From contig ONIH01000027.1 in assembly GCA_900317825.1 (NCBI GenBank), forward strand, positions 1-42,279: a stretch of DNA of 42,279 nucleotides. The letters are read 5' to 3'. The DNA is from an uncultured Lachnospiraceae bacterium. GTDB lineage: Bacteria; Bacillota; Clostridia; Lachnospirales; Lachnospiraceae. The notes beneath the pieces are model-generated. The model was not told the origin of the DNA. It searched no databases and was given only the letters and a program-made list of their open reading frames with translations. Position numbers and translations under genes: made by a program. Below are positions 13,780-17,000 of the stretch, piece by piece. Position 1 is the first letter of the stretch; the number at the start of each line of letters is the position of its first letter.

Positions 13780-15789
13780 TCAAATCTTAAACTCATTTAC
13801 ATATCCGGTCAGTGTATCTGAAGTATCGGCGAGCTCTCTCGAGTTATCCTTTACTTCCTGGCTCGACTTAGTGATGTTCTCGGCCTTTTCTACCATATCC
13901 TCAGAAGTCTTCAGGATCTCATCTGAAGAAGCTGCCTGCTCCTCAGAGATGGCTGCTACGTTGGCAGCAACGTCGTTTACCTTATCGACGTCAGTTACCA
14001 TATCATGGATGATCTGGTCTGACTCCTGGATATTCTTGTAGATATCATCGAAGGTAGAAACAGCTGTATTTATAAGCTCTGTGTTTGCCTTGATGCTCTC
14101 GGCACTGTTGTTGGCCTGGTCGACTACCTTTGCGATAAGTCCCTTGACCTGAGTGATCAGCTTCGAGATGCTCTGGGCGCTGTCAGCTGAATTCGAAGCC
14201 AGAGAACCGATCTGGGATGCAACGACTGCGAATCCCTTGCCGCTCTCTCCTGCTCTTGCAGCCTCGATCGAGGCGTTGAGTGAGAGAAGGTTCGTCTCAT
14301 CAGCGATCTCTGAAATGACTTCGACGATCTTCGTGATCTCCTCTGAAGCGCTTCCTACTTCACCGATGCTGTTTACGAGCTCGGTGTTTGCCTCTTCGAT
14401 CTCGCACATAGCCTTTGACAGCTTCTCCATGTCGTCACGGCCCTTCTGTGAGAGCTCTACGGTTGACTTCATCGAATCGTTTGCCTTCGATGACTTATCC
14501 TTTGTATCAGATACGACCATGGCAAGGGTTGTAGCGTTTTCCGCGATATCGTTTACTGCTTTTGACAGCTGATCTACAGTCTCATTCAGGTTCTTCATCG
14601 CATTCGACTGTGACATCGAGTCATCAAGCATCGACTTCGATACTTCGTCTGAAGAATCCGACTGCTCTTTGAGCCTTGCTGACTCGTCGTTTATCTTCGA
14701 GAGCATGGCACGCATCTTCTTTACAAACTCAGCCACAGAGCCAGACATAGCACCGATCTCGTCGTTTGACTCCTGCTTTACATCGATAGTAAAGTCGCCG
14801 TTGCTCATGGCAGTGATGTTCTTCGTGATGTCAGAGATAGGAGCTGTAACCTTCTGTACTACAATGCTGATCAGGATAGAGATGAGCACTGCTGCTATAA
14901 CTCCCAGGATGATAAGCAGAGTAGTCATCTGACTTACTCCTGCAAAAATAGTACTCGTCGGGATGTACGACACGAGAAGCCAGTCTGTTCCCTCGATCTG
15001 CTGGAAAGCCACGAGGTTTTTAGCTATAGTGTCGTTCTCATAATTCATCGTAGCCACATGCCCTGCTATTCCCCTGAGGAGATCAGAAGATGAATCCCGT
15101 CCTAAAGTCTTTCCGGCAATGGTATTATCCGGACTTGCGAGGATAGTGCTATCGTCAGTATCGATAAGCATGGCCCTGGCGTCTGTCATTTTGACACCGG
15201 AGTTTACTATCGTAGAGATCTTATCGAGTGACAGGTCTGCTCCGATGACTCTGATCTCGTCAGAACCGTCATCGATCATACCAGTAGCGGAGATGACCTG
15301 TGCTCCATCGTCATTTTTATATGCTGCACCAAAATGCATGGAAACTGAAGTAGTACCCTGCTTGTACCAGGTGGAATTCAACGGGTCTGTAGTCGAGAAC
15401 TTCGAATCCTTAGGCTTTATGACCTGTCCTGATGCTGTGCCGATATGCATTCCATCGGCGGCGTTTGAATTATAGCCGTAAGTCGCGTCGATAATGGACT
15501 GAAGCTCCTTATCGTCTGGCTTCGTCTGTTCGATCATGTACTTGATAGATGAAAAATCGGCGAGATTTTCGTTCATCCATGCGCTGATATTATCAGCCTG
15601 GTTCCCGATAGATGATGACAGCTCGTCTGTCGCCATCTGGCTGATCCTTTTCCTTGATGAGTACGCGGATATGACAATGAGCACTAAGATCATGATCAGT
15701 ACTGCCGGTACTATCAGGCCCATGAGTTTTGCTCTGATAGAGCTCTTCTTCGCTCCGGAAGCCGGGGCATTTGCTGCTTTTTTCTTCAT
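13780..15789 (-). CDS. methyl-accepting chemotaxis protein with Cache-type sensor
   Basis: A 669-residue transmembrane chemoreceptor. It has a basic cytoplasmic N terminus, TM1 at about residues 22-45 ([20 protein letters not shown]), an extracytoplasmic double-Cache-like sensor to about 290 (including [11 protein letters not shown] and [12 protein letters not shown]), TM2 ([20 protein letters not shown]), HAMP, and a long coiled-coil signalling domain with the hairpin tip [21 protein letters not shown] longer frame reaching 15870 runs into the inserted repeat element and is rejected; ATG at 15789 has CAGGAGGT. It is cotranscribed with the sugar-binding lipoprotein. The insertion at 15805-15974 ends six bases from the ribosome site, so the native promoter has been displaced. 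Confidence 0.93.
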
Positions 15790-15796
15790 GTAACCT

Positions 15797-15982
15797 CCTG
15801 AAACGTTACTATTCACGGCACCTCCCCAATCAGACCGCAGACCAACCGCGCTTACGCGCGTTTGCCGCATCTTCGATGCTAAAAGTCTGCGGTTGCTGGG
15901 TTCTGTGGGTATTCAAACGTCCGCACAAGTGCGTCCGTCGTGAACCCCCACAGAAGCCTGCCGTGAATAGTAACCCTGAAAC
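15797..15982. mobile_element. MITE-like structured element with 16-bp terminal inverted repeats and 8-bp target duplication
   Basis: The element proper is 15805-15974 (170 bp). Its ends are perfect 16-bp inverted repeats: GTTACTATTCACGGCA at 15805-15820 and its complement at 15959-15974. Both ends are flanked by the same 8-bp direct repeat CCTGAAAC (15797-15804 and 15975-15982), the mark of a transposition event. Inside are two folded arms. Arm 1: CCGCAGAC (15835-15842) pairs with 15885-15892 and encloses two small hairpins, CGCG-CTTA-CGCG and GCATC-TTC-GATGC. Arm 2: TTCTGTGGG (15901-15909) pairs with 15947-15955 and encloses CGCAC-AA-GTGCG. There is no transposase; it would need to be moved in trans. 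Confidence 0.8.
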
Positions 15983-15992
15983 CATATCCCCT

Positions 15993-16021
15993 TTTGTATT
16001 AAAACGCTCTTATGATATAAT
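15993..16021 (+). promoter_or_regulatory. extended -10 promoter of the alpha/beta hydrolase
   Basis: TGATATAAT at 16013-16021 gives a perfect -10 with an extended TG. A weak -35 (TTTGTA, 15993-15998) is 17 bases upstream. The predicted transcript starts about 13 bases before the hydrolase ATG, just in front of AAAGGAG. Confidence 0.65.
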
Positions 16022-16040
16022 ACACCAAAAGGAGAAAAAA

Positions 16041-17000
16041 ATGAACATTAAATTACTAAAAGAAGACGATTATATTTCTGTTATGAATTCAGAAAATAAA
16101 AAATGGCGGGAAGAGAACGTAAAGCAGGGGACTTTTAAGAGCTTTGACGGCACAAAGATAAATTACTACTACGCTATTCCGAAAGAGCGTAAGGGAAATA
16201 TCATGATGTTCCACGGCTACTCCGAGTTTTTTGGCAAATACCATGAGATGGCGTGGTATTTTTTCCAGGAGGGATATGCTTTCTTCTTTATGGAAATGCG
16301 CGGTCACGGGTATTCCCAGCGTTTCGTCGACAGGATGGACTATGTCTGGATTGACACCTACGATAACTACGTCGACGATCAGAAGGCTTTCTATGACAAG
16401 GTCGTAAAAGACAAGCTCGGCAAAAAGCCACTCTACCTGTTCTGCCATTCGATGGGAGGAGCAGTCGGTGCCCTCTTCCTTGAAAAATATCCGGACATCT
16501 TTAAAAAGGCTGTCCTCAGTTCTCCAATGCTCCAGATAAATACAGGTTCCTACCCGAGGCTCGTCGCGCGAGCTGTCATGTGGTACGCCCGTCGCCGCCG
16601 TCTTGGAAAAATGCCAGGTCCCGGCCAGCGAGAGTGGGACCCTGATGACAGGGCTGACCGCGAGTACACCTATTCGAAGGCGAGATACGACTACGTAAAG
16701 GAGATGCAGCTAGAGGATGTCCACCACCAGACCTGCTGCGCGACCTTCGGCTGGATGGATGCGTCCTTTAAGGCCGACAGGAAGCTGGTGCGGAATGCTT
16801 CGAAATGCGTGACACCTGTCCTATTATTCCAGGCAGGCGCCGATACGCTCGTCACTGCCGAAGGCCAGAACAGATTCGCAAAAAAAGCGCACGACGTGAC
16901 TGTCGTGCGCTACGAAAAGGCCGCCCATGAGATCTTCTCAGACGCCTATGATACAAGAGTCGATTACTTCACCAGACTCTTTACTTTTTTGCAAAGCTGA
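16041..17000 (+). CDS. alpha/beta hydrolase, monoacylglycerol lipase / lysophospholipase type
   Basis: A 319-residue PldB-type serine hydrolase. After an N-terminal strap come the oxyanion block MMFHGYSEFFGKYHEMA, the MRGHGYS turn, the nucleophile elbow CHSMGGA with Ser137, then QAGADTLV with Asp268 and KAAHEIFSD with His296, completing the triad. A basic cap segment (ARRRRLGK) lies in the middle. No signal peptide or membrane segment, so cytoplasmic or membrane-peripheral. The frame is open far upstream through the inserted element, but ATG at 16041 has AAAGGAG and a promoter just before it. Its last 20 bases overlap the end of the convergent GH3 gene. Confidence 0.9.
   Translation: MNIKLLKEDDYISVMNSENKKWREENVKQGTFKSFDGTKINYYYAIPKERKGNIMMFHGYSEFFGKYHEMAWYFFQEGYAFFFMEMRGHGYSQRFVDRMDYVWIDTYDNYVDDQKAFYDKVVKDKLGKKPLYLFCHSMGGAVGALFLEKYPDIFKKAVLSSPMLQINTGSYPRLVARAVMWYARRRRLGKMPGPGQREWDPDDRADREYTYSKARYDYVKEMQLEDVHHQTCCATFGWMDASFKADRKLVRNASKCVTPVLLFQAGADTLVTAEGQNRFAKKAHDVTVVRYEKAAHEIFSDAYDTRVDYFTRLFTFLQS

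Follow-up and report, generated by a model that had tools for sequence, protein, structure and literature searches.

Elements of the IS66 family of insertion sequences (ISs) carry tnpA/tnpB. In the excerpted text of a source on this family, the ends are given as GTAAGCG and are accompanied by 8-bp repeats (PMC11946415). Among short elements, MITEPsy1 and MITEPsy2 (PMC3189936, in part) and the bcr repeats of Bacillus cereus (PMC6542083, in part) are the closest described systems. The element analyzed here is a 170-bp insertion in a 42,279-nt stretch of DNA (the window) from an uncultured Lachnospiraceae bacterium (assembly GCA_900317825.1, contig ONIH01000027.1, positions 1 to 42,279). It is a miniature inverted-repeat transposable element (MITE): it is short, has terminal inverted repeats and a target duplication, encodes no transposase, occurs in multiple copies, has an empty site in a relative and shares its ends with an autonomous element. 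With good probability it represents an IS66-type MITE, mobilized in trans by the transposase of a GTTAC-ended IS66-like lineage, with a conserved fold in one large class of its relatives.

The insertion, its empty site and its copies

The element occupies window positions 15805-15974. Its 16-bp ends are perfect inverted repeats, and the 8 bp on either side form an exact duplication. It was the sole site in the window combining an inverted pair of exactly matching 14-mers (spacing 40-2,500 bp) with an exact 8-bp flanking repeat, and no site with an inverted pair and an 8-bp flanking repeat occurred in 20 shuffled windows, even at a pair length of 10 bp. The sequence and the shuffled windows thus bear out the proposal of the earlier note on this DNA that a real transposase-free insertion is present. 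The 170-bp element contains no transposase of its own; the two open reading frames (ORFs) of at least 90 aa that reach inside are extensions of the neighboring genes. The chemoreceptor frame stays open into the element (window 15790-15870), so that an N-terminally extended reading frame is now present.

The unoccupied site was found in the same-genus genome G005. A single contig there carries the same flanks, with identity at 126 of 128 aligned bases; the insert is absent and the target is present as one copy, CCTAAAAC. The homologous chemoreceptor start also lacks the insert upstream in genomes G009 and G001, where the sequence beyond differs. The insertion sits between the chemotaxis gene and the divergent hydrolase gene. 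The chemoreceptor ribosome site AGGAGG (15794-15799) overlaps the left duplication, and the insertion sets a strong hairpin beside the gene, directly upstream of this site and five bases away. The G005 site agrees with the prediction that removal of the element rejoins the ribosome site to the upstream region, and it shows that orthologous loci are not always filled.

The sequence is not single-copy either, as a search of its own genome revealed 19 matching stretches at 12 separate places, representing copies or fragments. Every one of these places has an end, exact on at least one side except for C34, the ends of which carry two and one changes, respectively. The full two-armed form of about 194 bp was found at L002, L004 and L005 (the right end of L005 with two mismatches). 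L006 is 183 bp long, L003 includes a run of N, and the remaining copies lack an arm or an end. Alignment to L002 shows that the window copy is an internally deleted form of the ~194-bp element: 24 bp are missing between its arms, and with them the third, small hairpin and the base of each arm. In this genome, the duplications are exact at L001, L003, L004 and L008, carry one mismatch at L011 and are absent at L002, L005 and L006.

Beyond this genome, an element match was detected in 4 of 13 genomes of the genus, and the exact 15-bp end in 21 of 397 family genomes; three of the 397 hold a single occurrence of its letters read backwards. Scanning genome contigs gave at least 119 stretches. Among the matches listed, many were titled Lachnospiraceae, Blautia, Eubacterium or Clostridia, and a few came from Bacteroidota and other groups, these without a partner end. 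Only one of 16 viral contigs (L205) shows a paired element with a duplication, and the phage and plasmid collections gave no match to the window element.

A survey of end pairs in the collected loci (at most two mismatches per end, 28-400 bp) identified 112 distinct pairs. An 8-bp duplication was exact at 41 of them and present with 0-1 mismatch at 66, compared with only 22 of 12,432 in the swapped-flank control. The G+C content of the 41 exact duplications was 33.5%. When the interiors of another, separately assembled set of 111 elements were compared by BLAST, 19 clusters resulted, and 74 members of this set have a duplication at no more than one mismatch, a figure that is not a rate, since membership was granted via the duplication or via good ends.

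Several loci showed variant architectures. In five composite elements (L216 1501-1590, L259 1734-1823, L111 6891-7110, L113 2505-2724 and L157 3377-3728) the GTTACTATTCACGGC ends enclose a further inverted sequence (CAATGTCA...TTAAG or close), placed immediately inside them or, in L157, within them, and the whole unit is flanked by an 8-bp duplication with 0-1 mismatch. Elements of 28-43 bp, scarcely more than two ends (L092 2724-2756, L102 6810-6852, L164 5518-5545 and L219 1501-1536), keep the 8-bp duplication with 0-1 mismatch. The elements at L181 4938-5038 (101 bp) and L267 9123-9298 (176 bp) have equal measured gene distances on both sides and are probably one insertion in two internal-deletion states. 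At L178 495-791, the long arm has grown by about four tandem copies of its tip to a total of 297 bp, with the pairing kept.

Table 1. Features of the insertion and of the adjoining genes (window coordinates).
Feature	Position	Strand	Basis or remark
Target duplication, left copy, CCTGAAAC	15797..15804	.	G005 empty site has the single copy CCTAAAAC
Left terminal inverted repeat, 16 bp, GTTACTATTCACGGCA	15805..15820	+	First 15 bases recur in 21/397 family genomes
Forked (Y) arm, an outer stem that bears two apical hairpins, one with a GUAA and one with a GAA loop (minus-strand reading)	15820..15901	-	Folds; covariance model R1
Scar of 24-bp internal deletion relative to 194-bp form L002	15896..15901	.	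Alignment to L002; breakpoint ambiguous by a few bases
Long arm, apical loop ACUUGU on minus strand	15901..15955	-	Folds
Right terminal inverted repeat, 16 bp, exact reverse complement of left	15959..15974	-	Sequence
Target duplication, right copy, CCTGAAAC	15975..15982	.	Sequence
Methyl-accepting chemotaxis protein gene	13780..15789	-	PF00015 1.1e-31, PF00672 2.1e-6
Alpha/beta hydrolase gene, divergent	16041..17000	+	PF12146 1.1e-45

A fold shared by families that BLAST does not join

The region 15797-15982 folds at -86.2 kcal/mol (z = -8.89), with none of 200 shuffles equally low. Interiors folded without the ends gave z values from -5.6 to -13.3 in cluster 0, to which the window element belongs (first eight members, 60 shuffles each), and from -9.7 to -14.8 in cluster 4. 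Clusters 7 and 9 were also far below the shuffles, cluster 3 was more variable (-2.5 to -12.8) and clusters 1, 2, 5, 6 and 10 were weaker (-1.6 to -5.0). A similar plan recurs in families which BLAST does not join: clusters 0 and 4 (most of the full-length members) and clusters 7, 12 and 15 (the full-length members). It consists of an end stem, a long arm capped by a CUUG-type loop, a small hairpin and a forked arm. In some elements, e.g., L123, L279 and L280, the fork is replaced by a single long hairpin.

Covariation was evaluated in 19 aligned members of cluster 0 on a 54-pair structure drawn from the fold of one member; the long arm, which MAFFT misaligns between subfamilies, was excluded except for its tip. 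Paired cells amounted to 91.5%, against 83.8 in shuffles and 33-46 with slid partners, pairs with a double compensatory change to 20 of 54 (12.2 in shuffles, 5-11 slid) and double-change cells to 83 (24.7 and 7-18, respectively), where the shuffle control ignores relatedness and the single-row structure favors the unslid count. Further pair types were not above the shuffles (276/500). The compensatory stem changes looked for are present, and the opinion that the interior holds more structure than mobility alone needs is right in spirit, given their number.

A covariance model of the forked arm (R1), built from 12 members of cluster 0, scored the window arm at 79.3 bits (E = 4e-17), with close relatives being inside the model. 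Beyond cluster 0 it recovered three of the six elements in cluster 4 and the one in cluster 12, at rough E values of 2.4e-6 to 6.8e-4, and it missed L126, L177 and L187 (cluster 4), L140 (cluster 7), L170 (cluster 15) and the cluster 0 members L123, L261, L279 and L280, all of which were searched. An end with at most four mismatches was located within 140 bases in 34 of the 35 model-match rows checked out of 44, the 35 including model members and repeated places. The other nine rows (window, L001, L003-L006, L045, L047 and the second L268 row) are all known end-bearing places. Because the forked arm adjoins an end in 34/35 rows, it was taken as a part of the element, and the fold reads as belonging to the mobile element. 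The exceptional row, L267 903-984, is a forked-arm match (E = 6.5e-6) with no nearby end, located within a different palindromic repeat.

The strand on which the fold is kept was also considered. GNA/GNNA and CUUG-type loops share one strand in folded members of clusters 0, 4, 7, 12 and 15. On this loop-bearing strand, 34 elements oriented by alignment and folds (L261 and L279 left out) contained 90 G-U against 59 A-C pairs, with 17 elements for the bias, 8 against and 9 ties. The 2x2 internal loop of the forked arm is CAT-GA-G/GA-ATG in eight elements of clusters 0, 4 and 15, and an alternative, CAT-AA-G/GC-ATG, occurs in six elements of clusters 0 and 7. The loops and the G-U excess point weakly to one strand, be it as RNA or as single-stranded DNA. 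The bias in alignment A2 (25 G-U vs 0 A-C) was not used as proof, because its structure was taken from the sense fold of one row. It is conceivable, though we hold it only tentatively, that a widespread class of IS66-type mini-elements has one three-dimensional fold in common, which works on one strand, in a host transcript or in single-stranded DNA during transposition, and is for that reason kept while the sequence varies almost freely, so that unlike families are the same molecule.

Paired changes may also arise with no selection, since intrastrand template switching can correct quasi-palindromes. The arms could then be functionless old palindromes kept matched during replication, and the frequency with which copies in this genome have lost one arm or one end (L007-L011, L013) would fit such a history. 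Correction of this type should remove mismatches, but internal and apical loops of similar form are retained from cluster to cluster and one-sided G-U changes are found in the stems, which makes this explanation rather doubtful.

Somewhat less probable still is a mobile cassette whose folded RNA affects the adjacent host gene as a leader, stabilizer, insulator or decoy, mobility merely spreading it. The fold common to families unjoined by BLAST, with the cluster 0 model reaching members of clusters 4 and 12, speaks for it, as do the same-strand loops, the recurrent 2x2 internal loop and the G-U excess. However, the strand bias is weak and the apical loop of L279 is opposite; the model misses the nine loci named above; an end accompanies nearly all of the rows checked; and CUUG- and GNA/GNNA-type loops are stable in single-stranded DNA too. 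No consistent gene neighborhood was observed either: of 66 insertions assigned to gene contexts with a simple rule based on ORFs, 39 lay between tandem, 16 between divergent and 11 between convergent genes, and a few of these entries represent one site shared by related genomes. Rfam gave no match over the element; at the gathering score L001-L006 gave none, and in 12 further loci the sole hit was to a ribosomal RNA. No intrinsic terminator (G+C-rich stem with a T run) was found inside the element on either strand, and the single terminator-like site in 15700-16100 lies outside it. Of the suggestion of a structured RNA or terminator cassette, the structured arms stand with their many compensatory changes and a mobile structured RNA is conceivable, whereas the terminator is not supported, given the missing U-tract and the 11 of 66 convergent insertions.

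The GTTAC-ended IS66-like lineage

The autonomous element was identified among unpaired ends, 88 of 269 exact ones being inspected singly. Six of these ends come from five contigs in two Oscillospiraceae assemblies (RGIG2617 and RGIG2815) and have two interiors in common; one contig carries both interiors as a 2,453-bp element (L162 3078-5530), the 15-bp ends of which are identical to those of the MITE. A full-length IS with the same ends, as had been sought, is thus at hand. It contains one ORF of 144 aa, or 123 aa when read from an inner ATG, and another of 585 aa, the product of which matches PF03050 (DDE_Tnp_IS66) at 2.7e-14; the IS66 transposase domain was detected in partner elements at 2.7e-14 and 1.3e-13. 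With the NCBIfam IS66 model, the L162 protein reached 172.2 bits, below the cut-off of 180.

Relatives of this transposase within the genus were two in G005 (47 and 48% identity) and one in G009 (44%, with an internal stop), with GTTACTATTCACAG at their ends. Both genomes are among the four MITE-bearing members of the genus, and the other nine genomes have no relative that close. The G005 element L339 669-3136 has the ends GTTACTATTCACAG and GTTACCATTCACAG, identical to the MITE end at 13 and 12 of 15 bases, and its 123-aa ORF is 50% identical to that of L162.

Transposase loci of the lineage were collected at 21 places from the genus (13 genomes) and the family (397), with G005 and G009 counted once. 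Seventeen of these 21 places carry the motif GTTACNNTTCA, nine of them as an inverted pair, and it was present at none of 18 other PF03050 loci, several of these being fragments. Two full-length members, L357 and L362, are flanked by the exact 8-bp duplications CAAAGCCC and GCCGGAAT. In a midpoint-rooted tree of 25 transposases, 15 GTTAC-labeled rows fell inside one group of 19, apart from six ordinary IS66 rows; four rows of the group lack the label, which needs two changes. The inverted repeat, which the earlier note did not recognize as that of a known insertion sequence, is on sequence grounds assignable to this GTTAC-ended lineage. The partner is called IS66-like, not IS66, because its ends are GTTACNNTTCA and not GTAAGCG. 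Because the ends are shared with the lineage, the MITE was most likely moved in trans by its transposase.

Several observations weigh against this assignment. Both ends of L339 differ from the MITE end in two bases (positions 13 and 15), and one has a further difference at position 6. The duplication was seen at only 2 of 10 full-length elements with both ends located and is absent at L162 and L339. The genome of the window, about 90% complete, has no PF03050 match and no transposase match by translated search. Among 26 genomes with the MITE or its end, any PF03050 match was found in 10 and a GTTAC-ended PF03050 element in only three (G005, G009 and G310), and the three family genomes that hold the closest relatives (G018, G052 and G326) are not among the 21 with the exact end. 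Ten of 37 loci of other transposases likewise carry GTTACNNTTCA, once as a pair. In BLAST of IS ends against MITE interiors, the only matches were 16-17 bases of the end itself, and mobility is read from sequence anatomy. Repeat-related misassembly may account for a part of the missing transposase and duplications.

Searches for longer elements gave no other partner. Among the loci collected by that stage, no element above 400 bp combined an exact or one-mismatch end with an 8-bp duplication, against 75 short ones, and relaxing the criteria for paired ends at a spacing of 600-4,500 bp likewise yielded none. Proteins common to the interiors of unpaired ends formed three small groups, all on viral contigs. 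PF01609 and ISL3 elements were rejected as autonomous partners, as no MITE-like paired ends with an 8-bp duplication were seen at PF01609 loci and the own genome has no match to PF01609 or PF01610.

According to the proposed mechanism, a DDE transposase of the GTTAC-ended IS66-like lineage would recognize the 15-16 bp ends in trans, and insertion into a staggered target would give the 8-bp duplications, as the anatomy suggests. The interior is non-coding and, in one large class, has the conserved fold of end stem, long arm, small hairpin and forked arm. This two-arm plan may have begun as hairpins inside the ends of a full-length element, joined once the coding part was lost, and selection acting on one strand, in the form of RNA or single-stranded DNA, may have maintained the fold since then. 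When the first 110 bases of each end were folded in nine full-length elements, strong hairpins appeared inside both ends of several (e.g., L162, L357, L362, L348 and L349) and inside a single end in others. The argument for such an origin is one of position, because no sequence is shared beyond the end.

That an IS4-like (PF01609) transposase moves the MITEs is very improbable: such genes repeatedly adjoin GTTAC-type sequences in genome G378, which holds all ten of the other transposase loci with GTTACNNTTCA (nine of them PF01609), but at eight of the ten the motif runs straight into CAATGTCA or CAATTTCA, read as the IS's own end, the IS at L318 is flanked by a GTTCACATA repeat derived from the GTTAC end, as if inserted into a MITE end, and the own genome lacks PF01609. 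The G378 loci were read as insertions into MITE ends, and this IS was rejected as the mobilizer. At L318, L319, L321, L323, L324, L325 and L328 the IS4-like end CAATGTCAGTTAGTTAAG, or close, stands directly beside GTTAC-type ends, as if these were a preferred target of the IS4-like element in G378.

Comparison with known systems

If the IS66-type assignment is true, gut Clostridia gain a MITE class with a likely transposase lineage, which would account for many short palindromic inserts of Lachnospiraceae genomes and would provide a clean case for asking why a complex fold persists in a non-coding mobile element as the sequence drifts. No IS66-derived MITE was found in the open-licence literature (titles, abstract starts and passages), nor was the 15-mer of the MITE end, 12-base pieces of which occurred only in three unrelated papers.

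The partner resembles IS66 insertion sequences in its DDE_Tnp_IS66 domain, in ends starting with GT and, at two of 10 full-length elements, in the 8-bp duplications. It differs in having GTTACNNTTCA at the ends instead of the GTAAGCG given for IS66 in the excerpted source (PMC11946415), and one 123-aa ORF without a Pfam or NCBIfam match in place of tnpA/tnpB. MITEPsy1 and MITEPsy2, as far as the excerpted account goes (PMC3189936), are likewise short, without a transposase and with IS-like ends, and MITEPsy1 makes a target duplication; the ends there are of the IS5?-type and Tn3, whereas here both the ends and the partner family are others, and one elaborate interior fold is kept across families that BLAST does not align. 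The bcr repeats of B. cereus are, in the available portion of their description (PMC6542083), similarly dispersed, mobile-looking repeats of 100-400 bp, from which the elements described here are set apart by their perfect inverted ends and by 8-bp duplications of varied sequence.
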